Assembly: GCA_016285145.1 (NCBI GenBank)
Contig: JAEEQE010000035.1
Span: 1 to 32,483 of the forward strand
DNA from: Bacteroidales bacterium
GTDB lineage: Bacteria; Bacteroidota; Bacteroidia; Bacteroidales; WCHB1-69
Length of the DNA: 32,483 nucleotides
Reading direction: 5' to 3'
The translations under genes and the position numbers were made by a program. Below, piece by piece: positions 9,281-32,483 of this stretch; the stretch's first letter is position 1, and the number at the start of each line of letters is the position of its first letter. A model generated the notes under the pieces. The model was not told the DNA's origin. It made no database searches and worked only from the letters and a program-made list of their open reading frames with translations.

Positions 9281-9448
9281 AGCGGCAGGTCTTCTGACTC
9301 GTTCCCAGAACAGCGTCTTCCCATCTTTCGACAGTGACATCTTGCCGTCCCCATTCGCGGAACTTACAGCAGCGGGTACTGTACAGGATTCGCACCTGTT
9401 TCCCTCTCAGGATTTTAAAATATAAAACCCTTCACCACTTAACGGCGG
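9281..9448 (-). ncRNA. Cobalamin (B12) riboswitch
   Basis: On the minus strand the conserved core is clear: GGGAAACAGGTGCGAATCC then TGTACAGTACCCGCTGCTGTAAGT (opposite about 9361-9403), the B12-box region GATGTCACTGT (opposite about 9331-9341; consensus GCCACTG with one change), GATGGGAAG, and the closing segment GAGTCAGAAGACCTGCC (opposite 9283-9300). This is an adenosylcobalamin-class aptamer by its pattern. It precedes the T9SS-secreted two-repeat gene and no other leftward gene. Confidence 0.93.
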
Positions 9449-9456
9449 CAAAAATA
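9449..9456 (-). promoter_or_regulatory. -7 box of the cobalamin-riboswitch transcript
   Basis: The minus strand reads TATTTTTG, just upstream of the aptamer, so the aptamer lies at the very 5' end of the transcript. Confidence 0.55.
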
Positions 9457-9515
9457 TAAAAAACATAAATTCAGCGACAGGCATTGTTTAAAAAAATAAT
9501 TTTCCGTTGTTATCT

Positions 9516-9543
9516 GTAGAGACGTGCCATGGCGCGTCTCTAC
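9516..9543. repeat. REP-like 28-base palindrome
   Basis: GTAGAGACGTGCCA is followed directly by TGGCGCGTCTCTAC; the two halves are inverted copies with one G-U pair. Palindromes of this look occur as dispersed repeats in many bacterial genomes. It lies between two divergent promoters. Confidence 0.6.
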
Positions 9544-9584
9544 ATACGGCATTTTCATGTGCCTGTGTATATTCGGAATTTATG

Positions 9585-9592
9585 TATTTTTG
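9585..9592 (+). promoter_or_regulatory. -7 box of the symporter gene
   Basis: TATTTTTG, with the start ATG only 6 bases after it, so the message is leaderless or has a leader of a few bases. Confidence 0.6.
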
Positions 9593-9598
9593 CACCCT

Positions 9599-10807
9599 AT
9601 GAAGAAGCTCTCACTTACCGCACAAATAGGCATAGCCCTGCTGCTTGCCGTGCTGGCTGGCATACTGCTGCACAACCAGGCCGGCTTCGTCAACACATAC
9701 ATAAAGCCAATCGGGATCATTTTCCTCAACCTGTTGAAATTCATTGTGGTACCACTGGTTCTCTTCTCCATTATGGCGGGTATTCTGTCAATGAATGACA
9801 TCTCGAAAGTGGGGAGGTTAGGATTCCGGGCGCTGCTCTATTTCATGGGGACAACCCTTTTCGCGGTAACCTTGGGACTGGTGGTGCCAAGTCTGCTGAA
9901 GGGTTTCCTCCCACTCATCCATATCGATACAGGAACAGCAGTTGAAAACATCGAAGTGCCCCGTCAGTCGGTGATGGAGCAACTGGTTAATATGTTCCCG
10001 AGCAACGTTATCACGCCGGTGAGCTCCATGGCGATGATGCAGGTCATTGTGATCGCTCTGTTTTTCGGCATCGCCATGGTCCATGTGGGCGAGAAGGGCG
10101 AGATGGCCCGGAAGGTGACTCTCAGCTTCAACGATGTGGTGTGCAAGATTCTGGAATATATCATGGCGCTGGCCCCTATCGGCGTGTTCTGTATGCTGAC
10201 ACCCGTGGTGGTCGATAACGGTCCGGCGGTGTTGGGCTCCTACGCGGCCCTGTTGGGCTTGGCCTACCTCTGCTTTGCCGTTCACGCGGGAATAGTCTAT
10301 TCCTCGACGGTTGGGCTATTGGGCGGCATTTCGCCCCTGAAGTTCTTCAAGAATATGCAGCCGGCCATGCTGTTTGCCTTCTCCAGCGACTCGTCAGTGG
10401 CCACACTACCCTACACAATGCAGTGTACGGAGAGGATGGGTGTCAGCAAGGAGATCGGACGGTTTGTGCTTTCGCTGGGCGCGACCATCAACATGGATGG
10501 CGTCGCCATCTATCTCGGCGTGGCCTCCGTGTTCATGGCGGCCTGCTGCGGCATTGACCTCACCATGAGCCAGTACATGGCCATCGCCTTCGCCTCCACG
10601 GTGGCCTCCATCGGCACGCCGGGCATTCCGGGAGGCAGTCTGGCACTTATGGCAATGGTGTTCGCCTCGGCGGGAATCCCGGTTGAGTGTGTGGCCGTGG
10701 CCGCCGGCATTGACCGCATCATCGACATGGGCCGCACCGTCATGTCAGTCACAGGCGACGCGTCGTGCGCCGTCGTGATGCAACGAATGGTGGGGACAAA
10801 ATTGTAA
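9599..10807 (+). CDS. Dicarboxylate/amino acid:cation symporter (DAACS)
   Basis: A 402-residue inner-membrane transporter of the GltPh/DctA fold that imports an acidic amino acid or dicarboxylate with Na+ or H+. Seen: multiple hydrophobic helices, the serine-rich hairpin 1 (SSDSSVATLP, near residue 262), the helix-7 motif GATINMDGVAIY (near 295), hairpin 2 (ASIGTPGIPGGS) and the helix-8 binding motif GIDRIIDMGRTVMSVTGD (near 370-387). The Arg of DMGRT suggests an acidic side chain as substrate. The Asn usual in the following TVVNVTGD motif is Ser here. The promoter box excludes an ATG 75 bases upstream, so the ATG at 9599-9601 is chosen. The gene stands alone. Confidence 0.92.
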   Translation: MKKLSLTAQIGIALLLAVLAGILLHNQAGFVNTYIKPIGIIFLNLLKFIVVPLVLFSIMAGILSMNDISKVGRLGFRALLYFMGTTLFAVTLGLVVPSLLKGFLPLIHIDTGTAVENIEVPRQSVMEQLVNMFPSNVITPVSSMAMMQVIVIALFFGIAMVHVGEKGEMARKVTLSFNDVVCKILEYIMALAPIGVFCMLTPVVVDNGPAVLGSYAALLGLAYLCFAVHAGIVYSSTVGLLGGISPLKFFKNMQPAMLFAFSSDSSVATLPYTMQCTERMGVSKEIGRFVLSLGATINMDGVAIYLGVASVFMAACCGIDLTMSQYMAIAFASTVASIGTPGIPGGSLALMAMVFASAGIPVECVAVAAGIDRIIDMGRTVMSVTGDASCAVVMQRMVGTKL

Positions 10808-10844
10808 ATTATCTACTTTTAATATTATATAAGAATAAAAATCT

Positions 10845-12020
10845 ATGAGCAATCCTCTTTTCAACATCCAGTACGGACTGTACGTTATCACAACGTGCGA
10901 CGGCGGCCGCGACAACGGCTGCATCAGCAACACCATCACGCAGGTGGCGATGCAACCCGACCGCATCTCCGTGGCCCTCAACAAGGGCAACCTGACCACT
11001 GAACTCATCCAGCGTTCGCGCCGCTTCACGGCTTCCATCCTCAGCGAGGCGGCCGATTTTGAACTCTTCAAACACTTCGGGTTCCAGAGCGGGCGCGAGG
11101 TCAATAAGTTCGCCGACTTCAAGGACTGCCGTCGTGTCCCGAACGGAACCTTGGCTGTCACACGCGGCACCAACGCATTCCTTTCCGTTAATGTGGAGCA
11201 GGTTGTGGACCTCGGTTCGCACATGCTCTTCATCGGTCCCGTCACCGAAATGGAAGTCCTCTCCGATGTGCCCTCCGCCACCTATAGTTACTATCAGGAG
11301 CACATCAAGCCGAAGCCGCGGCCCGTGGGCCAGACCGCCGAGGGCAAGACCATCTGGCGCTGTGTTATCTGCGGTTACGAGTACGTGGGTGAAGAGCTGC
11401 CCGACGACTTCATCTGCCCCATCTGCAAGCACCCCGCCTCCGATTTCGAGAAGGTTGTTGCGGAGGCTGAAGCGCCCACAGGCACGGGCAAATACGCCGG
11501 CACGCGCACGGAGAAGAACTTGGAAGCCGCTTTCGCCGGCGAGAGCATGGCCCGCAACAAATACACCTATTACGCCTCCGTGGCCCAACGAAACGGCTAT
11601 GAGCAAATCGCAGCCCTCTTCCTGAAAACCGCCGACAATGAACGCGAACACGCCAAACTCTGGTTCCAGCATCTGGGCGGCGTGGGCACAACAGCCGAGA
11701 ACCTCCTGCACGCGGCCGAGGGCGAAAACTACGAGTGGACAGATATGTACGACACTTTCGCCCGCGAAGCCGATGAGGAGGGATTCCACGAGCTGGCCGA
11801 ACAATTCCGGGGCGTCGCGGCCATAGAGAAACACCACGAGGAACGCTACCGTGCTCTGCTGCACAACGTCGAGACCGCCGAGGTCTTCCGCAAGAGCGGC
11901 GTCAGTATCTGGGAGTGCCGTAACTGCGGCCACATCATCATCGGCACCGAGGCTCCCACCGTCTGCCCCGTCTGCTTCTATGCACAAGGCTGGTTCGAGA
12001 TCAATGCGGAAAACTACTGA
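10845..12020 (+). CDS. Flavin reductase-rubredoxin-rubrerythrin-rubredoxin fusion
   Basis: A 391-residue cytoplasmic fusion for peroxide and oxygen defence. Residues 1 to about 150 form an FMN-binding split-barrel flavin reductase domain ([30 protein letters not shown]). Residues 168-202 are a rubredoxin (Cys173, Cys176, Cys191, Cys194). Residues about 220-345 are a rubrerythrin diiron four-helix domain with the expected acidic/His clusters ([42 protein letters not shown]). Residues 356-384 are a C-terminal rubredoxin-like knuckle (Cys358, Cys361, Cys374, Cys377). Flavin reductase-rubredoxin proteins and rubrerythrins are usually separate, so one chain here could carry electrons from NAD(P)H through FMN and iron to peroxide. 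No obvious -7 box; a weak TACTTTTA lies near 10814. Confidence 0.93.
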
Positions 12021-21901: not shown

Positions 21902-24265
21902 TTAGTCAAGCTCGGGGAAATCCGGAAGTTCAGGAGCGTCGTTTCTTTTCGGCTCGTTGTTTTCCGGACGGGCGTGCTGGCCATGGTCATTGTTGCGCGG
22001 GCCGCGCTCGTTGCGATGCGGGTTCGGGCGTGCGGGACGCTCGCTTCTCTCACCGCCACGACGAGGCTCGTTGCCACGCGGGGCACGGTCGCCACGACCG
22101 CCACGATTGCCACCTCTCGGCTTGGATTCAGGATCCGTATAACCTTCCGGCTTCGGAAGGAGAACCTTGTGCGAAAGTCTGAACTTGCCAGTCTTCTCAT
22201 CAATCTCAATGAGTTTGACTTTGATCTTGTCACCCACCTTCAGCACATCCTCCACATTGTCAATGCGGCGGTAGGCAATCTCCGTCACATGCAACAGACC
22301 GTCGGTGCCGGGCAGGAACTCGACGAAAGCGCCAAAGGCGGTGATGGTCTTGACCGTTCCTTCGTAAATCTCACCCACCTCCGGTTTCGTGGTGATGAGT
22401 TTGATACGCTCCATGGCGGCGTTGATGTTGTCCAGATTCGGGGCTGCAATGTCGATGATACCAAACTCACCCACCTCCTCGATGTTGATGACGGTGTTGG
22501 TCTCACGCTGCATCTCTTGGATGATCTTGCCTCCCGGTCCGATGACGGCGCCGATGAACTCGCGCGGGATTTGCATTTGGATGATGCGCGGGACGAACGG
22601 TTTGTAGTCTTCACGCGGAGCCGGCATGGCCTCTTTAATCTTTCCAAGGATGAACATACGTCCGCGGTGGGCCTGTGCGAGGGCCTCAGCCATCACTTCA
22701 GCGGAAAGACCGTGAATCTTGATGTCCATCTGGCAGGCGGTGATACCGTCTTCCGTACCGCAGACCTTGAAGTCCATGTCGCCAAGATGGTCCTCATCAC
22801 CCAAGATGTCGGACAAGATGGCGTACTTGTCGGATTTCTCATCGGTAATCAAGCCCATGGCGATACCGGACACCGGCTTTTTGAGTTTCACACCGCAGTC
22901 AAGCAGAGCGAGGGTGCTGGCACAGACGGTGGCCATGGAAGAACTGCCGTTGGATTCCAGAATGTCGGACACGATGCGGACCGTATAGGGGAATGTAGGA
23001 TCGTCGAAGGGAATCATGGGAGCGACGGCACGCTTGGCTAGGTTGCCGTGACCGATCTCACGACGACCCGTGCTGCCGATGCGTTTCACTTCACCCACGC
23101 TGTAGGGCGGGAAGTTGTAGTGCAACATGAAACGGCTGGAACCTTCAATCACAGCACCGTCAATGGTCTGCTCATCCAACTTGGTACCGAGGGTACAGCT
23201 GGCCAGAGCCTGCGTTTCACCACGGGTGAAGATGGCGGAACCATGAGCAGCAGGCAGATAGTCGGTCTCGATCCAGATGGGACGGATGGTCTCCAGGTCA
23301 CGACCGTCCAGACGGATGCGCTCGTCCAGAATCATGTTACGCATGGCGTGATATTGCACATCGCTGTAATAGCGTTTTACCATCACCTCTTTCTCGGCAC
23401 GCTCCTCTTCCGGGATCGTCTCCATGAAATCGGCTAAAATCTGGTCGAAAGCCTCGTTGCGGGCCTGCTTGCCCATGAAGGATTTGGCTACGGCATACAC
23501 TTTGTCGTAGGTCTCCTTCTGGATGCGTTCGCGGATTTCCTCGTCGTTGGTCTCGTGGCAGTATTCGCGTTTCGGGTTGGCGGTGGGCACCTTGGCGGCC
23601 AGATCCAACTGGGCCTGGCACTGCACCTTGATGTTGTCCTTGGCGAAATTGAGGGCGGCGACCATGTCATCCTCGGAAATCTCCTTCATCTCGCCTTCCA
23701 CCATCATGATGTTGTCCATGGAGGCGGCCACGATCATGTCAATGTCGGAATTCTCCATCTGCTCCACGGTCGGGTTGACGACGAACTCGCCGTTCACACG
23801 GCCCACGCGGACTTCAGAAATGGGGCATTCGAAGGGAATGTTGGAAACGGCGATGGCCGAAGAGGCTGCTAAACAGGCCAGACAGTCGGGCAGTTGGTTT
23901 TTGTCGCCGGAAATCAGCGTCACGATGACTTGTGTCTCGGCGTGGAAGTCCTTGGGGAACAGCGGACGGATGGCGCGGTCCACGAGGCGTGCAATGAGGA
24001 TTTCGTACTCGGAGGGACGTGCCTCACGACGGAAGAAACCGCCGGGGATGCGACCCAAAGCACCGTATTTCTCCTGATATTCCACCTGCAACGGCATGAA
24101 GTCAGTGCCCTCAACGGCCTCTTTCTTGCAGCACACGGTGGCCAAAATCATGGTGTTGCCCATTCTCACAACGGCAGAACCGTCGGCCTGCTTGGCCAAC
24201 TTGCCCGTTTCGATGGTCACTTCACGACCATCGGGTAATGTAAAGCTTGTATTTATTCCTAACAT
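21902..24265 (-). CDS. pnp: Polynucleotide phosphorylase
   Basis: A 787-residue 3'-5' phosphorolytic exoribonuclease of the RNA degradosome. Order: first RNase PH domain (from residue 1), helical linker, second RNase PH domain with [18 protein letters not shown] and [34 protein letters not shown] domain ([18 protein letters not shown]), and S1 domain ([20 protein letters not shown]). An added tail of about 80 residues (708-787) is rich in Arg, Gly, Asn and Pro with RGG-like steps, ending in an acidic [10 protein letters not shown]. The tail is longer than the short C-termini of many PNPases and looks disordered and RNA-binding. The gene follows rpsO on the same strand with a terminator-like hairpin between, the same order as in many bacteria. 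Confidence 0.97.
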
Positions 24266-24692: not shown

Positions 24693-24700
24693 CAAAGGTA
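24693..24700 (-). promoter_or_regulatory. -7 box of rpsO
   Basis: The minus strand reads TACCTTTG. The leader of about 45 bases could hold autoregulation by S15, but no clear structure was seen. Confidence 0.6.
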
Positions 24701-25053
24701 GCATTTTTTTTAATATGATGGAATCCCTGCCTGCAATTATTTTTCATGGAGTTTTTGCAGTCTGCGTATGGACATTAAACGGATTGGGGGAGGTGCGGAG
24801 TTAAGGAGTTAAAGAGTTAAGAAACTAAGAAGTTAAATTCCCCTTCTTTAAGAAGGGGTGGCCGCAGGCCGGGGTAGTAATATAATGAATTAAAATACCT
24901 TAAGTGAAAGACCAAGACCAATCCCTAATTCCCAAAACCCAACGGCTAACGGCTAATAGCTAATAGCCAATATCAAATATCAAATCCCAAATCCCAAAAC
25001 CCAACGGTCAATGGCAAATTGCAACTTCTAACACCTGTTAATTGAAAATTTTG
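24701..25053 (+). repeat. Gene-free gap with REP-like element and tandem motifs
   Basis: No gene. At 24798-24836 units of the AGTTAAGG/AGTTAAAG/AGTTAAGA type repeat. At 24840-24877 there is a double hairpin element: CCCCTTC...GAAGGGG (24840-24858) then GGCC-gca-GGCC (24860-24870) and GGGGTAGT, a form common among Bacteroidota dispersed repeats. From 24936 to 25021 follow degenerate units of AACGGCTAA, GGCTAATAGCTAATAGCC, ATCAAATATCAAAT and AATCCCAAATCCCAA. Confidence 0.55.
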
Positions 25054-25061
25054 TATCTTTA
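25054..25061 (+). promoter_or_regulatory. -7 box of cassette 1
   Basis: TATCTTTA, one base off TAnnTTTG. The box and the following leader to the ATG are almost the same as in cassette 2 (29532-29539). Confidence 0.55.
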
Positions 25062-25097
25062 CCGCCGAAAAAAATTTATTAACCTTAAAATTCAATC

Positions 25098-26729
25098 ATG
25101 ATGAAAAAGATTTTTATTTCCTTCAGCTTTTTAATGATGGCCATCCTCCCTGTTTTCGCACAAAACAACCATTGGGAGTATTGGGATAATGTGAACCCAA
25201 TTAACCCTACAAGTGCCGTCACGGTGGTTCATTCCAATGGAAGTGCCTATTTGTTTCAGTCAAATGGTAATGACGTGTATGTGTCAGAATTAGATCCCAT
25301 CACTATGCAGGTGGTGCCGAATACAAGCTATTATATATCAGTACCTGCAAATTATTACCCATTGGTGTTGCGGGGGGCATACGAAGATTTCAGTGGAGAT
25401 ATTGTTCTTTATGGGAGTTGCGGATTTGGGCCTCTTGCTGCTTTGTACGATGCGGTGAATCATCAGATTATTCAGATTATGTTAGATTCAAACCATATTG
25501 GTGATTATTTTATCAACGGATGCTGTGGTTACGACAACAACGGAGGGATGGTAAATATGCTGGTGCTGAATCAAGCAGGCATAATAATTCCCGTCGATTG
25601 GGTAAATTCTAACGTACATTATTTGGGAATCCCCATCGGTAGTGTCTCGGATGTGGTGTGGGATCCACACAACTCTTGTTTTGCCGCTGCAGGACACCAA
25701 TATTCAGGTGTCTGTCCCGAACTTTTCCTGTTGGGTTTTGAATACAATAGTCTTACCACTTTATTCATAGTAAACACACATTTCGCGTGGAATCTGCCAT
25801 CTTATCTATATGCTGAATATCAGACAAATCTGGATGTTTTAGATGACTCGAATATTGTTGTGGGACATAACGTGCGTGATGTGAAGGGAGATGATTTTAT
25901 ATGGCTGTCAAGAATATACAATTATGTAAATCTGTCCAATTATAGGTTGTTCAGATTCCCAGCTCCGAAACTCTTCCTATCGGATATGAAATATGACGAC
26001 AGCAAAAACAGGCTGACTATTCTTGGTGAGATGAATTATTGTAACTCAACTTATATTGCCCAGACAGATCCCTTTACATTGGCAAGTATGCAAGCCGCGC
26101 AAATAACGGGAAGTATGCCCTACTATACATGCCAAATTAATCAGAACACCCTTTATGGTAATGATATTACATTGCAGAAACTGGAGATTAACCCATACAA
26201 GTGTAATCATATTCTTGCTACAGGAACTTATTATGATAATGTCCAAGGGAATAAAGCGTATATAACAGAGACATACGACATCTTCAAAAGTATTTGCGAT
26301 ATTCCATTCAATCCCAACACACATAATGTCACATGTAAAACAGGTGCAGTGATAGACACGCAACCCGTTTTTAACATTCAGATTCTCGGTTATAGTGTGT
26401 ATTTGCTACAAACTATAGACCTTCAAACAATCCGTTCCTGTTCGGATAACCGCCCTTGTGGTGCGAAAGACATGGATTCCACAAAGAGAATGTCCGTTGA
26501 AAGAACGGCGTCCATAACAATAATGGGGAACGGCACACTATATTTTCAAGGCTTCGAAAATGGAGCTGATTATGAGATATATGATGTTACAGGAAGGATT
26601 GTGGCAACTGGAAGGACAGGAAATGGACAGTTGAAAACAAAAATCTGCTGTACAGGTTTATACATCATTTCCGCCAAGGACCAATTTGGCAACGCTGTTA
26701 CAAAGAAATTTGTTTATACACACGAATAG
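25098..26729 (+). CDS. Secreted T9SS client, cassette 1 protein A (propeller-like)
   Basis: A 543-residue exported protein that I cannot assign to a named family. Signal peptide residues 1-22 (ends PVFAQ). The body has recurring strand pairs that look like beta-propeller blades (AYEDFSGDIVLYGSCG, SDVVWDPHNSCFAAAGHQY, DMKYDDSKNRLTILGEM) and a GDYFINGCCGYD motif with adjacent cysteines. The last 60 or so residues (GADYEIYDVTGRIVATGR, TGLYIISAKD, VTKKFVYTHE) form a T9SS sorting domain. It is 6 bases upstream of protein B and clearly paralogous to the A gene of cassette 2. Base composition is AT-rich compared with core genes. It is probably a surface protein; the ligand is unknown. Confidence 0.75.
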   Translation: MMKKIFISFSFLMMAILPVFAQNNHWEYWDNVNPINPTSAVTVVHSNGSAYLFQSNGNDVYVSELDPITMQVVPNTSYYISVPANYYPLVLRGAYEDFSGDIVLYGSCGFGPLAALYDAVNHQIIQIMLDSNHIGDYFINGCCGYDNNGGMVNMLVLNQAGIIIPVDWVNSNVHYLGIPIGSVSDVVWDPHNSCFAAAGHQYSGVCPELFLLGFEYNSLTTLFIVNTHFAWNLPSYLYAEYQTNLDVLDDSNIVVGHNVRDVKGDDFIWLSRIYNYVNLSNYRLFRFPAPKLFLSDMKYDDSKNRLTILGEMNYCNSTYIAQTDPFTLASMQAAQITGSMPYYTCQINQNTLYGNDITLQKLEINPYKCNHILATGTYYDNVQGNKAYITETYDIFKSICDIPFNPNTHNVTCKTGAVIDTQPVFNIQILGYSVYLLQTIDLQTIRSCSDNRPCGAKDMDSTKRMSVERTASITIMGNGTLYFQGFENGADYEIYDVTGRIVATGRTGNGQLKTKICCTGLYIISAKDQFGNAVTKKFVYTHE

Positions 26730-26735
26730 AAAATA

Positions 26736-29372
26736 ATGAAAAGACCTTTTCACATATTCTTATTTTTATTGCTAACCCTGACAATTTCCGCCCAGGAAGA
26801 ATACCTGAAAGGCCGTGATTTTTGGACGACTTCTTCTGTGTTAAGTTATGATAGTGCCCTGTTTACGTCATCCCCACAATATGACATTCTATATCTTCCG
26901 GATACTTGTGTACTATATGTGATGGGCGATACGGTTTGCAACGGATATGTGGAGAATCCGAACACAGGCTTTTATCAAACGTTTGCGGTTACGCCGGGTG
27001 TTTTGACTAAACTAAAAATTCCGTCCGAACATGGAATGTGGGCCTTGTCCAACCAGTGGACCAATCCTGAAACAAGTCGTGATACAATCTTTCCATCTGG
27101 AATACATGTTGCGACGAGTCATAGTATATTGCTGTACCAGTTATGCAATATGCCAAGATTTGTGAATGCCGAGGGCGGATTATGCACTCCAATGTCAAAT
27201 CAAAAATTGCGCGTTCTGCCCATGCATCTGTACGGATCAAACCATAGTCATGCCCAACATCATGATATGGGGTGTGTTGTAATAGCGACAGAGGACAGTA
27301 GCCTTGTTACGATTCGTGTTGCCGGGAATGTGGAATCTCAAAGAATTCTACGAAAGGGTGAGACTCTTATATTAAAATATTCAAGGAATATAGCTTATAG
27401 AACAGTACACATCGAATCAAATTGCAAGATAATAAAGCATTGTATGTTGGATCTGTCTGAAAGCCGCAATAAGGGCATGATGGTAGATTATTTTCATTAT
27501 TCCAATAACATTGATATGCTTGAAAAAAGGTACGCCAATGGAAGACTATATAAATTAAGGGGACATGGATGTCTTAATGAACAGCATATGCCTCTTGACG
27601 GTATCGGATTTTATGGCTGGTATATAGGACAAATTACCTCGGCGCGTTATCTTTTGGGAATAGGAGCGGTCAGCCATCTTGTGCAATTTCAGATGGTACC
27701 AGTAGATGTAGACTACAGTTTTGCCCGATGGCCGAACCTTTTCTCTTTCAGCAGAGTATATCCAGAAACGGGTTGCGAATTGTACGTCAATCCTGTATTT
27801 GAGAATGGGAGCATTAATAGATGCGATCGCTATCCTGCTATTCACACATATACTCCCACCAACTACTTCGTACGCTCCTGTCTTATCCCCACCTCCACCA
27901 ACGAGATGCCCGACGACACCAACTACGCCGACCTGCTCATCTACGTTCACGAGGACGGCCTCCACTCCACCACCCTCAACGGCCAACCCATCCCCGCCTC
28001 CGCCTTTGACTCCTTCCCCTACACCAACCGCGAGTACTGGGTGGCACAGTTCGCCTACTACAATCAGGACATACCCCCATACTTCAAAATTGAGAACCCC
28101 CACGGCTTCCACGCCGACCTGGACGAGATAGCCTATCATGCGCGCCCGTCTGACCCCTCCAAGATCGACGTGACGGGATTCCTGCTCTCCTCCTCCGGCG
28201 AAGCCTACGAGGACCTGGATTTCGCACACAACAACCTCTCGCCCCACGATTCGTCCACAGTCTACAGGTGCGTGGGCGACACGCTGCTCCTGGACGCCAA
28301 CACACAGTGGGATTCGGTGCCCTGCCTCTGGACACTGGACGGCACAGACTACCCCGATATGCCCATTGTGGCGGTGCCGCTTCAGGACACGGGCCTGCGG
28401 GTGGCACGCCTCATCCTCTACGGCAACCCCAACTGCCCGGACACCACCACGACCTTTGTGCGCGTGCTGCCGCCGCCGGTGCTGCCCCTGCACTCCGACA
28501 CCACCCTCTGCCGCGGCACCGAGCTCTCGGCATGGGACGGGAACGCCATCCTCTACCATTGGAGCAACGGGGCCACCACACCCTCCGTCACCATAGATTC
28601 GGCGGGCATGTACTCGGTGACGGTGACCAACCGGGGTTGCACGGCCCACTCCGACAGCGTGCGGGTGGACCTGTTCCCGCAGTCGTCGGTGGACTTCGGC
28701 GCGGACACCGCACTCTGCTCCATAGCCACGCTCATCCTGGACGCGGGCCAGCCGCACCCCGCCACCTACCTGTGGCACGACGGCTCCACCAACAGGACCT
28801 ACACCGTATATCAGGACGGCACCTACTGGGTGGTGGTCACCGACCACTGCACGGGCGTGAGCGACACGATAGCGGTGGAGTATCTGGAGGATTTCGACAT
28901 AGAGCTGGGCAACGACACGACGCTTTGCACGGGCGCGGAGCTGCGGCTGTCGGCCTACGTGCCGGGTGCGGAGTACCGCTGGCAGGACGGGAGCGCGCAG
29001 CCCGACTACGTGGTGCGCCACGCGGGCGAGTACAGCGTGAGCGTGCGCAACGCCTGCTTCAGCCACGGCGACAGGATTTACGTCAGCTACGGCGACTGCG
29101 AGCAGGAGGTCCGGATGCCGACGGCGTTCACGCCCAACGGCGACGGTCTGAACGACCGCCTGCTGCCGGTGTTCGAGCATCCGGAGCAGGTGAAAGATTT
29201 CCGGATGATCGTGTATGACCGCTGGGGCGCAATCCTGTTCGTGACGGGTAGCCTCACGGAGGGCTGGGACGGCGACAACGCGCCCATGGGGGTGTATGTG
29301 GTGCGCGTGCGCCACACCGACCCGGACGGCACGGAACACATCGTGCGCGCGGCCGTGACGCTCGTGAGGTGA
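26736..29372 (+). CDS. Surface adhesin, cassette 1 protein B (IgGFc-binding-like, CHU_C tail)
   Basis: An 878-residue exported protein. Signal peptide residues 1-19 (TISAQ). The N-terminal part (about 20-450) resembles the IgGFc-binding N-terminal domain of other bacterial surface proteins: YLKGRDFWTTSS, FPSGIHVATSHSILLYQL, LPMHLYGSN, IATEDSSLVTIRVAGN, LRKGETLIL. Three or four Ig/PKD-like repeats follow (about 510-790), with units such as DTTLCRGTEL...YHWSNGATTPSVTIDSAGMYSVTV. The end (about 795-878) is the gliding-motility-associated C-terminal domain, MPTAFTPNGDGLNDRLLPVF then FRMIVYDRWGAILF, which marks T9SS export. The first 372 codons are AT-rich; from base 27854 on the gene turns GC-rich without a break in the frame. 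IgG binding itself is not implied. Confidence 0.82.
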   Translation: MKRPFHIFLFLLLTLTISAQEEYLKGRDFWTTSSVLSYDSALFTSSPQYDILYLPDTCVLYVMGDTVCNGYVENPNTGFYQTFAVTPGVLTKLKIPSEHGMWALSNQWTNPETSRDTIFPSGIHVATSHSILLYQLCNMPRFVNAEGGLCTPMSNQKLRVLPMHLYGSNHSHAQHHDMGCVVIATEDSSLVTIRVAGNVESQRILRKGETLILKYSRNIAYRTVHIESNCKIIKHCMLDLSESRNKGMMVDYFHYSNNIDMLEKRYANGRLYKLRGHGCLNEQHMPLDGIGFYGWYIGQITSARYLLGIGAVSHLVQFQMVPVDVDYSFARWPNLFSFSRVYPETGCELYVNPVFENGSINRCDRYPAIHTYTPTNYFVRSCLIPTSTNEMPDDTNYADLLIYVHEDGLHSTTLNGQPIPASAFDSFPYTNREYWVAQFAYYNQDIPPYFKIENPHGFHADLDEIAYHARPSDPSKIDVTGFLLSSSGEAYEDLDFAHNNLSPHDSSTVYRCVGDTLLLDANTQWDSVPCLWTLDGTDYPDMPIVAVPLQDTGLRVARLILYGNPNCPDTTTTFVRVLPPPVLPLHSDTTLCRGTELSAWDGNAILYHWSNGATTPSVTIDSAGMYSVTVTNRGCTAHSDSVRVDLFPQSSVDFGADTALCSIATLILDAGQPHPATYLWHDGSTNRTYTVYQDGTYWVVVTDHCTGVSDTIAVEYLEDFDIELGNDTTLCTGAELRLSAYVPGAEYRWQDGSAQPDYVVRHAGEYSVSVRNACFSHGDRIYVSYGDCEQEVRMPTAFTPNGDGLNDRLLPVFEHPEQVKDFRMIVYDRWGAILFVTGSLTEGWDGDNAPMGVYVVRVRHTDPDGTEHIVRAAVTLVR
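27854..27980 (+). repeat. Conserved block shared by the two B genes (copy 1)
   Basis: Aligned without gaps to 32357-32483: 116 of 127 bases agree by hand count (about 91%). It starts at TCCCACCAACTACTTCGT. Upstream of it the two genes are much more diverged. The second copy is cut by the window end, so the true length is unknown. Confidence 0.85.
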
Positions 29373-29531
29373 GCAGTAGCCAGGGATCAGGGGACAGGGG
29401 TCAGTAATCAGTAATCAGTGAATAGTGAATAGTGACAGGGACAAGGGATTGCTTTTTCCGCATTGCTTTATAACTATTAATTATTAACTGTTAATTATTA
29501 ATTGTTAATTGTCTCCTGTTTACTTTTTTCG
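29373..29531 (+). repeat. Inter-cassette gap with tandem motifs
   Basis: No gene. 29381-29400 holds AGGGATCAGGGGACAGGGG-like units, 29401-29434 tandem CAGTAATCAGTAATCAGTG and AATAGTGAATAGTGA, and 29471-29511 units of TTAATTATTAACTG. Related motifs occur near 6.15 kb (CAGTAGTCAGTAAACAG) and in other gaps. Confidence 0.5.
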
Positions 29532-29539
29532 TATCTTTA
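29532..29539 (+). promoter_or_regulatory. -7 box of cassette 2
   Basis: TATCTTTA, followed by a leader nearly identical to that of cassette 1. Confidence 0.55.
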
Positions 29540-29574
29540 CCGCCGAAAAAATTTATCAACCTTAAAATTCAATC

Positions 29575-31218
29575 ATGATGAAAAAGATCTTTATTTCTCT
29601 CGGTTTTTTAATGATGTTCATCCTTCCTGTTTTCGCACAAAACAGCCATTGGGAGCACGCTCATTCCATCTGTGGAGCATCAGGACCTATAACAAGTGCA
29701 GTAACGGTTGTGCATTCCAATGGAAATGCATATTTGTTTCAAACGGATGCAGGCAGCTTATTCGTTACAGAGTTAAGCCCCACAAATATGATTCCAAGTG
29801 GGCCAAGTTATGGTGATTACATCCCTGATGTGATTCTGCAAGGTGCATACGAGGATTTTAATGGGGATATTGTTATCTATGGGAGTTATAGCATTAATAA
29901 CATTAAATATCCTGCCGCTGCTTTGTATGATGTTTCTACAAATCAAATTATCAACTACAATTTGGATACTAATTACATTGGGGACTGCTTTATAAATGGT
30001 TGCTGTGGATATGACATAAAACGGATTGTCGTGAATATGATGGTACTGGAAAGAGCAGGAATGGTGGTTCCAATTGAGTGGGGCTGTTCTTCACAATCGG
30101 TGACTTTGATAGAAGATAGAGACAATGGACCTATCTCTGATGTGACTTGGGACTCATACAATAAATGCTTTGCCGCTACGGGACACCATTATTCAGCCAA
30201 TGGTGTCGAACTATTCCTGTTTGGGTTTGTTTATAATAGTTCCACTGCAATCCCATCGGTTACTGCCTCTACAGCTTGGAATCTGCCATCCTATTCATTT
30301 GCCGAATATCGAACAAATTTGGAAATACTTGATAAGAATAGCATTGTTGTCGGACAATGCATACGGGATGCCAATGGCGATTGGATCTGGCTGACAAAGA
30401 TAAACAATTATGCTACAATTGGAAATTCCGCGGTTTTCCTGTTCCCTGCACCAAAGCTTTTTATGTCGGACATGAAATATGATGAAATACATAACCGACT
30501 TACCATACTTGGACGATTACAGTATTGTAACGACGTGAACTACATTGCGCAAATTGACCCGACTTTTCTGAAAGGTATGACTGCAGCATATATTACAGGA
30601 AACATGCCTTTTATAACTTGTGCACATAATCAACATCTTGTGTACGGTAACGATATCGTTTTACAAAAATTAGAAAAAAATCCCCATGATTGTATGCAAA
30701 CTATTGCAACAGGTACATACAGCCCTTCAAATGAGGTATATATAACAGAGGTGTATGATATAGCGAGCAGTCAATGCGATCCACCTATTACTATTTCAGA
30801 GCAGCCTGCCTCTCCACAAACAGGAGCCTTTGTTGAGAACAAGATTGGTGTTGTAATATTACGTTTTTGTACGTCTGTTCCTCTAACATACGTGGGCTCG
30901 TTATATGATAATAATACCTGCCCAGACATTTATCCATGCCCAAAACAAGAAGATGATTCTGTTAAAAATTTATTTTACAGCAGTGAGATGGTAAAGGCTA
31001 CTGTAGATGTGAAAAATGGTACTTTGGTTTTTAATGGCTTTTCTGACAAGATTGATTATGTGATATATGATGCTATGGGAAGAACGATAACGACTGGCAT
31101 AACACCGAATGGCACTTTGTCCATCAATCTCCGTAGCACAGGCCTCTACATCATCATCGCCAAGGACCACTATGGCAACGCAATAACTCAAAAGTTTGTC
31201 TACACCCGCGAACAATAA
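29575..31218 (+). CDS. Secreted T9SS client, cassette 2 protein A (propeller-like)
   Basis: A 547-residue paralogue of the A protein of cassette 1. The signal peptide (ends PVFAQ) and leader are almost the same in DNA; the body is related but diverged (GAYEDFNGDIVIYGSY; GDCFINGCCGYD; SDMKYDEIHNRLTILGRL). A T9SS sorting tail ends the protein (YVIYDAMGRTITTG, STGLYIIIAKDHYGNAITQK). Its stop shares a base with the start of the next gene (TAATG at 31216-31220), indicating translational coupling with protein B. It is AT-rich, as in cassette 1. Function unknown; probably exposed on the surface together with B. Confidence 0.75.
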   Translation: MMKKIFISLGFLMMFILPVFAQNSHWEHAHSICGASGPITSAVTVVHSNGNAYLFQTDAGSLFVTELSPTNMIPSGPSYGDYIPDVILQGAYEDFNGDIVIYGSYSINNIKYPAAALYDVSTNQIINYNLDTNYIGDCFINGCCGYDIKRIVVNMMVLERAGMVVPIEWGCSSQSVTLIEDRDNGPISDVTWDSYNKCFAATGHHYSANGVELFLFGFVYNSSTAIPSVTASTAWNLPSYSFAEYRTNLEILDKNSIVVGQCIRDANGDWIWLTKINNYATIGNSAVFLFPAPKLFMSDMKYDEIHNRLTILGRLQYCNDVNYIAQIDPTFLKGMTAAYITGNMPFITCAHNQHLVYGNDIVLQKLEKNPHDCMQTIATGTYSPSNEVYITEVYDIASSQCDPPITISEQPASPQTGAFVENKIGVVILRFCTSVPLTYVGSLYDNNTCPDIYPCPKQEDDSVKNLFYSSEMVKATVDVKNGTLVFNGFSDKIDYVIYDAMGRTITTGITPNGTLSINLRSTGLYIIIAKDHYGNAITQKFVYTREQ

Positions 31219-32483
31219 TGAAACGACTCTTCCTCATATTGTTGTTTTTATTCCTGACCTTGGCGGTTTCCGCCCAAGAGGAATACCTTAAAGGCCGCGA
31301 TTTTTGGACGACATCAGCAGCATTGTTCTATAGTCGAACGCTGTCATCTCTCCCTATTGTTATTCAACAAATGCATTATCAGCCTGACACCACTGTTTTA
31401 TATGTATTTGGAGACACCGCTTGTACCGGATACGTGGAAAATCCAAACACAGGCTTCTTTCAAACATTCAATGTTACACCTGGTGTAGAAACAATACTGA
31501 AGATCCCATCCGAACACGGAATGTGGGACCTCCCCTATGACTGGTTTACTTGTCAGAACCACTGTGACACAATCTTTCAATCCGGAATACATGTGGTGAC
31601 GAACCGCAATGTAGTGGTTAAACAGTTAACGAACACACCTGAATGGATTTATGAGGATGATGTATCATCTCCTGTTTCTACCCAAAAACTGGATGTTTGG
31701 CCAACACATCTCTACGGAGCATATTCCAATCTTTTTTGGGGCACATGGTGGACAATGTGTCTTTGTGTTTTGGCAACGGAAGACAACAGTTTCGTCAACA
31801 TAAAAGTTTCTGGGAATACAATATCGCAACGAATCTTACAAAAAGGTGAGACGCTTATATTCATGCAACAACCGAATTCTGATAGAAATAGAGTATTGTG
31901 TGTTGAATCTGATTGTAAGACAGTAAAGTGTTTTTTTGTGCCTGTAAATGACTGTGTTGGAGGTGAACCAAAAGTCTTGTATCACGGTCGCTTTAATAAC
32001 AGGGACTTTTTGGATAAAAAATATGTCAATCCAAAATTAATTAAATTAAGAAGACCTTTTTTCCCAAGTATAAATGGGGTATATAATTATTCTTTGTTCG
32101 ACGGAATGATTTATTCAGGAAATGCTAATCACGGAAATCCTATGTATATTTTGGGGAGAGGGATTTTTAGTCACATCACACAACCCCAGCCTTTGTCGCA
32201 GGATGCCGAATTCGGTTTTTGTCGTTTACATAATGCCTTTGATCTGGTGTCTGTAATGCGAACAAGTTTTGACGGTGTCAATCCCACTTGGGGTAACGGA
32301 CCCGTTTACCAATATTATTGGGAATTTGATAAGTATCCCTGTGTGGGAAATTCCCTTCCCACCAACTACTTCGTCCGTTCTTGCTGGATCCCCACCTCCA
32401 CCAACGAGATGCCCGACGACACCAACTACGCCGACCTGCTCATATACGTGCATGAGGACGGCCTCCTCTCCACCACCCTCAAC
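31218..32483 (+). CDS. Surface adhesin, cassette 2 protein B (partial, runs off window)
   Basis: The first 422 codons of a paralogue of the B protein of cassette 1; the frame is open from the ATG at 31218 to the last base. Signal peptide MKRLFLILLFLFLTLAVSAQ. Then come the same IgGFc-binding-like landmarks: YLKGRDFWTTSA, YVENPNTGFFQTF, IPSEHGMW, FQSGIHVVTN, LATEDNSFVNIKVSGN, LQKGETLIF. The N-terminal part is clearly diverged from copy 1. From base 32357 the sequence switches to the GC-rich block shared with copy 1. Ig-like repeats and the gliding C-terminal domain presumably follow beyond the window; this is inferred from copy 1. Confidence 0.8.
   Translation, partial: MKRLFLILLFLFLTLAVSAQEEYLKGRDFWTTSAALFYSRTLSSLPIVIQQMHYQPDTTVLYVFGDTACTGYVENPNTGFFQTFNVTPGVETILKIPSEHGMWDLPYDWFTCQNHCDTIFQSGIHVVTNRNVVVKQLTNTPEWIYEDDVSSPVSTQKLDVWPTHLYGAYSNLFWGTWWTMCLCVLATEDNSFVNIKVSGNTISQRILQKGETLIFMQQPNSDRNRVLCVESDCKTVKCFFVPVNDCVGGEPKVLYHGRFNNRDFLDKKYVNPKLIKLRRPFFPSINGVYNYSLFDGMIYSGNANHGNPMYILGRGIFSHITQPQPLSQDAEFGFCRLHNAFDLVSVMRTSFDGVNPTWGNGPVYQYYWEFDKYPCVGNSLPTNYFVRSCWIPTSTNEMPDDTNYADLLIYVHEDGLLSTTLN
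32357..32483 (+). repeat. Conserved block shared by the two B genes (copy 2, cut)
   Basis: Partner of 27854-27980, with 11 differences in 127 bases. It extends past the window edge. Confidence 0.85.

Follow-up and report, generated by a model that had tools for sequence, protein, structure and literature searches.

Why should the base composition of one uninterrupted reading frame change abruptly at a single codon, and what does the change tell about the history of the gene? This question is raised by a gene, here called B1, on JAEEQE010000035.1, a contig of 32,483 nt in the draft assembly GCA_016285145.1 of a Bacteroidales bacterium (2.73 Mb over 71 contigs). The whole contig was analysed and is referred to as the window; the genome is designated G000 and its contigs carry C numbers, the window being C50. 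Two tandem gene pairs, A1-B1 and A2-B2, occupy the region 25038-32483 (genes 25098-32483), all on the forward strand. B1 consists of a variable head of 373 codons (26736-27854), which has no Pfam match, and a constant stalk (codons 374-878 plus stop, 27855-29372). Our analysis indicates that the B genes very probably consist of two modules with separate histories, the stalk being homogenised in part and the heads exchanged between copies and between species, with a step in guanine-plus-cytosine (GC) content at the edge of the shared DNA.

The initial annotation had described B1 as a chimera on the basis of four hand-counted GC values, and all of them proved exact (30.0% and 61.7% in B1, 26.7% and 58.3% in B2). 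The jump had been placed near 27854. Indeed, the best single change point in GC content at third codon positions (GC3) falls after codon 373, at window position 27855, where GC3 rises from 0.38 to 0.89; its z value is 15.8, whereas none of 2000 shuffles of the B1 codons exceeded 4.2. In the three measurable G000 copies (B1, B3 and B4) the change point coincides with the junction codon exactly. A jump at the homologous codon had also been reported for B2, whose head spans 380 codons (31218-32357, GC3 0.37). The GC counts are right, but the contig end truncates the stalk of this copy 126 nt past the junction (32358-32483), so B2 is outside the change-point table and only the counts could be confirmed. 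Over these 126 nt the two copies are 91.3% identical, as the earlier figure of about 91% had implied. The copies are also far more diverged before the jump: among five copies (four from G000, one from the related genome G035; ten pairs), a mean identity of 0.32 over the final 60 nt of the head contrasts with 0.94 over the 60 nt that open the stalk. The change is abrupt, and no smooth gradient of divergence is seen. The AT-rich stretch is not limited to the head and includes the upstream gene A (A1, 543 aa, 25098-26729, GC3 0.40; A2, 547 aa, 29575-31218, GC3 0.36, 51-53% identical to A1). The G000 background has a GC3 of 0.65 (SD 0.09, range 0.33-0.81; 75 open reading frames (ORFs) of at least 200 aa from six stretches); the B1 head is near its low end and the stalk above its range, so that both parts depart from it.

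In total, G000 carries four AB pairs on two contigs, two in the window and two more on C60, plus a stalk fragment that ends C6. Since B2 breaks off with C50 at residue 422 and the C6 fragment aligns to B1 from residue 439, the fragment is probably the remainder of B2. Genomes were compared at one per species. When the stalk was used as a query at E 1e-60, 18 of the 40 genomes of the genus matched (G000 included), as did one of 60 genomes outside it, namely G044 from another genus of the same family. The closest stalk relative of G000 (87% identical) is G035, which matches the Bacteroidales metagenome-assembled genome RGIG7861 from water buffalo reticulum. A total of 35 B rows were extracted. 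The change-point table leaves out 11 of them (stalk-only pieces, G000_B2a, G031_2 and G011_C4), and the head tree leaves out the eight rows without a head and contains 27 heads, G031_2 being entered with extra upstream codons. The 3' stalk tree (30 rows) leaves out G000_B2a, G024_C15, G031_2, G010_C39 and G010_C17, which are too short. The G011_C4 copy (L080 around 9319-10997) contains one in-frame stop.

Judged from genealogies and synonymous divergence, the B heads and the constant stalks have separate histories. Seven heads (G001_C5, G037, G024_C15, G005_C38, G009, G031 and G019) form a group, termed type I, with a support of 100/99 in the 27-head tree. Six of these rows are present in the tree of the 3' stalk (stalk3), where they fall into two groups of three, each together with non-type-I rows of other species. 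Approximately unbiased (AU) tests on 20 rows rejected the type I head clade on stalk3 (p 7e-6) and two stalk clades on the heads (p 5e-7 and 4e-5). The synonymous divergence (dS, calculated as NG86 and unreliable above about 1) was obtained separately for the head, for stalk3 and for stalk5, the first ~140 stalk codons (27855 to about 28277 in B1), which have a diverged AT-rich counterpart in the type I copies of other species. Within G000, dS is 2 or saturated in the heads and 0.13-0.35 in stalk3. Saturation affects both head and stalk5 within G001, G005 and G024, where stalk3 gives 0.31-0.50. The G031 copies reach 2.0 in the head and saturation in stalk5; the single later 50-codon block that allows comparison is 97% identical between them. 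Stalk5 is thus saturated in all four genomes with a comparable type I and other copy. The C39 and C17 copies of G010 differ by about 2.6 in the head, 1.2 in stalk5 and 0.08 in stalk3. Because synonymous divergence itself steps from head to stalk3, the two parts differ in age and not in constraint alone.

One head has recently been shared between two species, according to the alignment of G010_C17 with G002, and the sharing ends at the junction. Over 1.3 kb of head the two copies differ in 14 of 1317 columns (98.9% identical; the limits 45-1361 were chosen after the similarity profile was seen) and then in 29 of 138; the junction lies at nt 1368, and mismatches are dense from 1395. Their dS is 0.04 in the head, 1.05 in stalk5 and 0.49 in stalk3, and the stalk3 of G010_C17 is closer to that of G010_C39 (0.08) than to that of G002 (0.49). 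The sequences that precede the two ORFs show no relation to each other. On the G010 contig, at a distance of 5.6 kb, lies a gene that shares 82% identity with its G002 counterpart, and this counterpart is sited on a contig other than that of the G002 B gene; hence, the G010 contig is more than a mere fragment from the species of G002. Such a nearly identical head on different stalks supports the swapping of heads onto a constant export module, one of the two patterns originally suggested. Neither the G002 copy (L084 9738-12665) nor G010_C17 (L091 1-2286) has an ATG at the signal peptide, and both may be silent. The A gene beside G010_C17 is split into two ORFs, and A is split in G032 (L076 7005-8642) too.

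The stalks themselves undergo concerted evolution by gene conversion, as far as their mosaic patterns tell, with homogenisation that is partial. The four G000 stalks differ two against two at 50 sites, of which 22, 22 and 6 favour the three pairings, respectively; these sites fall into 18 runs, and 0 of 10000 shuffles were as clustered. In some same-genome pairs stalk3 dS is 0.08-0.13 with heads saturated or near saturation. On the stalk3 tree, copies from one genome cluster together in five of the nine genomes with at least two rows (G000, G010, G024, G027 and G044). The low stalk3 dS beside saturated heads, together with the mosaic G000 stalks, supports the second suggested pattern, gene conversion limited to the 3' part, and recombination along B, for which tests had been called for, is favoured by the AU tests and by the clustered mosaic sites. 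The abrupt junction, the conflicting genealogies, the interspecies sharing of one head and the mosaic stalks are all read directly from sequence.

These patterns most likely arise as follows. A constant module, formed by the stalk and its C-terminal sorting signal and common to several chromosomal copies, would be partly homogenised by homologous recombination, and a variable module, the head and often the upstream A, would be exchanged between copies and species by recombination in conserved flanks. General homologous recombination, with no dedicated enzyme, would drive the exchange. The left flank may be a short arm made up of the A 5' leader and signal-peptide codons. It lies at 25038-25163 in unit 1, where it is alike in all four G000 A copies, and at 29531-29640 in unit 2, where it is 92% identical to the A4 arm on C60 (176 nt compared). 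The four G000 arms (~176 nt each) are 0.74-0.92 identical, with near identity in the 44 nt that directly precede the ATG. Left arm and stalk would then provide one arm on each side for the exchange of A together with the head. Genes A and B are closely spaced, with a gap of 6 nt between A1 and B1 and an overlap of 1 base between A2 and B2. With the split A genes of G010_C17 and G032 left out, A and head distances are correlated over 13 rows (Mantel r 0.66, 0 of 10000 permutations).

Alternative explanations of the two-part structure were weighed against these results. If no recombination took place, B would be a single gene with a head that evolves fast under diversifying selection and a conserved stalk, and the dN/dS ratio, the nonsynonymous relative to the synonymous divergence, is in fact greater for the head than for the 3' stalk when close pairs are compared (for example G031/G019, 0.17/0.38 versus 0.14/0.61). 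This explanation is hardly credible, however, because the synonymous divergence steps too (from saturated to 0.08-0.5 in same-genome pairs), the head and stalk trees conflict, and the head is the more alike part between G010_C17 and G002 (unless this pair reflects a binning or assembly error). A chimera of assembly or binning at the junction, which the initial annotation had itself considered, deserves attention in draft genomes in which 16 of the 35 B rows reach a contig end. We regard it as highly improbable, since assemblies of different species, among them the one that matches RGIG7861, show the same step at the homologous codon, and the GC jump recurs in 24 of 24 measurable copies, so that a single misassembly cannot be its cause; moreover, the contigs break off either inside the stalk or at its first codon, as expected if near-identical repeats break assemblies. 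Programmed phase variation, by which heads are switched within a culture from silent copies or by an invertase, would suit the tandem AB pairs and the silent look of some copies (the G010_C17 and G002 heads without ATG, the split A of G010_C17). Nevertheless, we consider it quite unlikely. No head-only cassettes were found in G000 with B1 as a query at E 1e-3 (the head matches among the 36 obtained all lie in the four B ORFs), although very diverged heads could escape such a search; no inverted repeat of at least 16 nt with 90% complementary arms is present in window 24700-32483, and no recombinase was recognised among the eight window and two C6-flank proteins scanned.

Some points nevertheless speak against the reading of two exchanging modules. 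It rests on drafts with the many broken rows just mentioned, and completeness and contamination are 63% and 1% for G010 and 95% and 5% for G002. Same-genome copies do not group on stalk3 in G001, G005, G011 and G038, and the correlation between A and head distances has an r of only 0.29 in the nine rows outside G000, where 501 of 10000 permutations are as high. A fixed A-plus-head cassette is therefore not claimed: the strong correlation is due to G000 only, and the head shared between G010 and G002 came without A.

What, then, produces the step in composition? GC3 rises from head to stalk in all 24 copies with both parts. For 13 of the 17 non-type-I copies the change point and the junction are no more than 10 codons apart, and in all seven type I copies the GC jump occurs 118-139 codons downstream of the junction, at the start of the common stalk. 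The type I stalk5 (the first ~130-140 stalk codons) is homologous to the other stalk5 sequences but diverged and AT-rich, with a mean GC3 of 0.49 against 0.78 in 18 other rows, the lowest of which are G025 (0.56, head not known) and G021 (0.65); the stalk3 values are 0.87 and 0.88, respectively. Type I was defined from the head tree before stalk5 and stalk3 were scored apart, whole-stalk GC3 having already been seen by then, and as the type I rows are related they do not represent seven independent events. A boundary that shifts with the common tract in 7/7 type I copies fits a GC content that follows the recombining tract, as a correlation and not as a cause.

The composition was also compared with the mean background of 16 genomes having at least five background ORFs each (G019, G025 and G031 were left out of this count). 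Stalk3 is above background in 16/16 and the head below it in 15/16. In the 15 genomes of the genus, stalk3 GC3 is 0.83-0.92 versus mean backgrounds of 0.57-0.72; single background ORFs reach 0.90 in G001, and the G000 stalk3 is above each of the 75 background ORFs. Across the 16 genomes the correlation with background is r 0.32 for the head and r 0.84 for stalk3, both of which lean on the AT-rich G044. As a control, nine other CHU_C-type ORFs of G000 that match the sorting-domain part of B were examined (six Pfam-confirmed CHU_C, three by match alone; copy numbers unchecked). In six of them GC3 falls and in three it rises (C26, 0.42 to 0.66; C62 and C71, each 0.57 to 0.69), and none exceeds 0.69 after its best change point. 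A second multi-copy family of G000, with a CHU_C score of 25.7 bits (cut-off 27), has its step at codon 604, where GC3 goes from 0.44 to 0.80. Copies on three contigs share 97-98% identity over their final ~400 nt, and several copies end at contig borders (L124, L121, L122 and L123; C41:1963-4656, C41:1-1752, C67:21338-23275, C1:20071-20490 and C3:3-386). Sharing is a better predictor of GC than either the protein domain or the demand for particular codons.

Because the position of the GC step coincides with the edge of the common DNA and shifts along with that edge, we tentatively propose GC-biased gene conversion at the scale of a single gene, a proposal that may well prove wrong. Repeated biased conversion would have made the shared stalk GC-rich, with GC3 near 0.9, and DNA without a partner would stay near 0.4. 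Import alone, by which heads and A would derive from a pool of AT-rich donors and retain the composition of that pool through frequent moves, the stalk being native and conversion unbiased, is a possible but rather doubtful alternative. It agrees with heads and A that are AT-rich in species with different flanks, with the head recently shared between species and with head GC3 that tracks the background weakly, unlike stalk3, and the type I stalk5 could simply be part of the imported piece. Nonetheless, a stalk3 GC3 of 0.83-0.92 is no native composition, as it lies over all 75 G000 ORFs and over six further ORFs that we take to encode ribosomal proteins (GC3 0.46-0.71). Thus, the import of AT-rich cassettes accounts for the low heads but not for the stalk. 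Codon selection, in which GC-ending codons are favoured in the stalk for expression or secretion, could be seen in the third base of G000 stalks being mostly C (66% in stalk5, 54% in stalk3). It is nevertheless unlikely given the lower GC3 of the six presumed ribosomal-protein ORFs, the difference between homologous stalk5 sequences in type I and other copies, and the nine other CHU_C-type ORFs, which stay below 0.7 in their later part.

On the other hand, several results count against biased conversion as the cause. When third-position changes among the four G000 stalks were polarised, 35 GC-to-AT changes stood against 4 AT-to-GC changes in stalk3 and 17 against 1 in stalk5, ratios that are inflated by parsimony and, in stalk3, also biased by composition; at first and second positions the numbers are 31 to 18 and 6 to 4, respectively. 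The third-position changes run towards AT, opposite to what biased conversion predicts, and lean against a GC drive at present, although parsimony exaggerates the trend. The left arm, although shared, is AT-rich (GC 0.24-0.32). Four non-type-I change points are displaced from the junction (G021 by +34, G005_C5 by +47, G002 by +32 and G027_C10 by +133 codons), the G027 head is above its background (0.61 vs 0.58), and G044 shows only a small effect (about 0.25 to 0.40, background 0.36). In addition, the C26 control ORF also rises, to background level, and the step of the second family lies upstream of its known 97-98% shared part, the extent of sharing being hidden by contig ends.

What kind of proteins are these? 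The B1 C-terminus (aa 793-860, window 29112-29315) matches the CHU_C type IX secretion sorting domain PF13585 with 36.7 bits (cut-off 27), and all ten scanned relatives are over the cut-off. TIGR04131 gives 34 bits in B1, just under its cut-off of 35, and is over it in three of five relatives, one of the five being a head-only piece. B has a signal peptide-like start, and G000 encodes SprA (TIGR04189, 2458.6 bits), the sole component of the type IX secretion system (T9SS) machinery searched for. From these matches, B is a probable family of type IX secreted surface proteins. If the B proteins reach the surface, the heads could be ligand-binding or antigenic surfaces whose diversity is kept by selection. 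The stalks of some relatives give weak PKD matches under cut-offs. A1 also has a signal peptide-like start, and A1 and A2 show weak C-terminal matches to the T9SS type A sorting domain (22 and 21.4 bits, cut-off 23). No Pfam family exceeded its cut-off in the heads or A proteins (B1, B2, A and ten relatives scanned), and profiles of 13 heads and 10 A proteins matched no PDB sequence at E up to 5. AlphaFold2 models were uninformative, with mean pLDDT values of 29.5 for B1 (3 sequences) and 34.3 for A1 (2 sequences). A likeness of the head to the IgGFc-binding protein N-terminal domain was not supported, as no profile match was obtained in B1, B2 or ten relatives. Pfam scans of the same proteins revealed no toxin domain; immunity genes were not sought.

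The chromosomal neighbours of B were also compared. The genes for polynucleotide phosphorylase (PNPase) and a glycosyltransferase are neighbours in 8 of 19 genomes (G005, G011, G015, G021, G024, G027, G037 and G038), with gaps of 0.5-1.9 kb, too short for B. In G035, B sits between the two genes, and in G000 they are on two contigs, each beside a B array (L068 on G035:C37, window 21902-24265 and L031 15601-16611). In seven other genomes they are on separate contigs or at least 12 kb apart, and two genomes gave no match. An aminotransferase gene that lies close to the C6 fragment has B in its vicinity in G005 and G010 too, two of the 14 genomes with a match besides G000. This arrangement of neighbours hints that segments of the chromosome may be moved by crossovers between B copies. 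The intergenic DNA at window 24780-25020 and 29375-29470 contains many short degenerate direct repeats, seen by eye, and similar repeats lie beside A3 and the C6 fragment. A very large repeat protein adjoins A3 (L031 3-6581) and has homologues on C23, C64 and C26; its last 993 residues have nine matches in G000 and ten in G035.

Taken as a whole, B would represent a modular surface-protein family that diversifies by head exchange on a shared T9SS stalk, in a Bacteroidales genus with a member from the water buffalo reticulum. The near-identical stalks explain why these assemblies break at B genes. Because head and stalk belong to one gene, one transcript and one genome, a GC contrast of this kind, with a boundary that can move, makes the question of a GC preference in bacterial gene conversion directly testable. 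If GC-biased conversion is the true cause, the genus, and perhaps the second G000 family, would offer a natural experiment on a force whose role in bacterial genomes is disputed.

Several known systems resemble B in part. In polymorphic toxins, a constant export part is joined to a variable C-terminal toxin domain and followed by an immunity gene; the polarity is the reverse of that in B, whose C-terminus is constant and whose N-terminus varies. Neisseria pilin (pilS/pilE) diversifies by recombination with silent cassettes, whereas no silent head cassettes were found in G000 with the B1 query, by which diverged heads could be missed. With the T9SS type B sorted proteins (CHU_C / TIGR04131), B shares the C-terminal CHU_C domain, the signal peptide-like start and the presence of SprA in the genome, and the family definition is silent on exchangeable heads or composition. 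No description of the B family was found in searches of open-licence papers, judged by title and abstract start. The nearest system is that of Porphyromonas gingivalis, in which surface proteins combine a conserved C-terminal T9SS signal with variant domains that are mosaic and unrelated to strain phylogeny (PMC5266723). Its gingipains are, like B, Bacteroidales surface proteins with a T9SS C-terminus and variant domains; in Kgp the catalytic and the last adhesin domain vary (PMC5266723), whereas B varies over its entire N-terminal head and has ~500 C-terminal residues in common between copies. B shows a composition step at the module boundary, while the passages of that paper on these proteins make no mention of base composition. 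As regards composition, GC was found to be higher in genes with evidence of recombination, which was argued to be independent of codon selection (Lassalle et al. 2015, PMC4450053). That comparison, as presented there, is between genes, whereas the contrast in B lies within single genes and has a boundary that moves with the shared tract.

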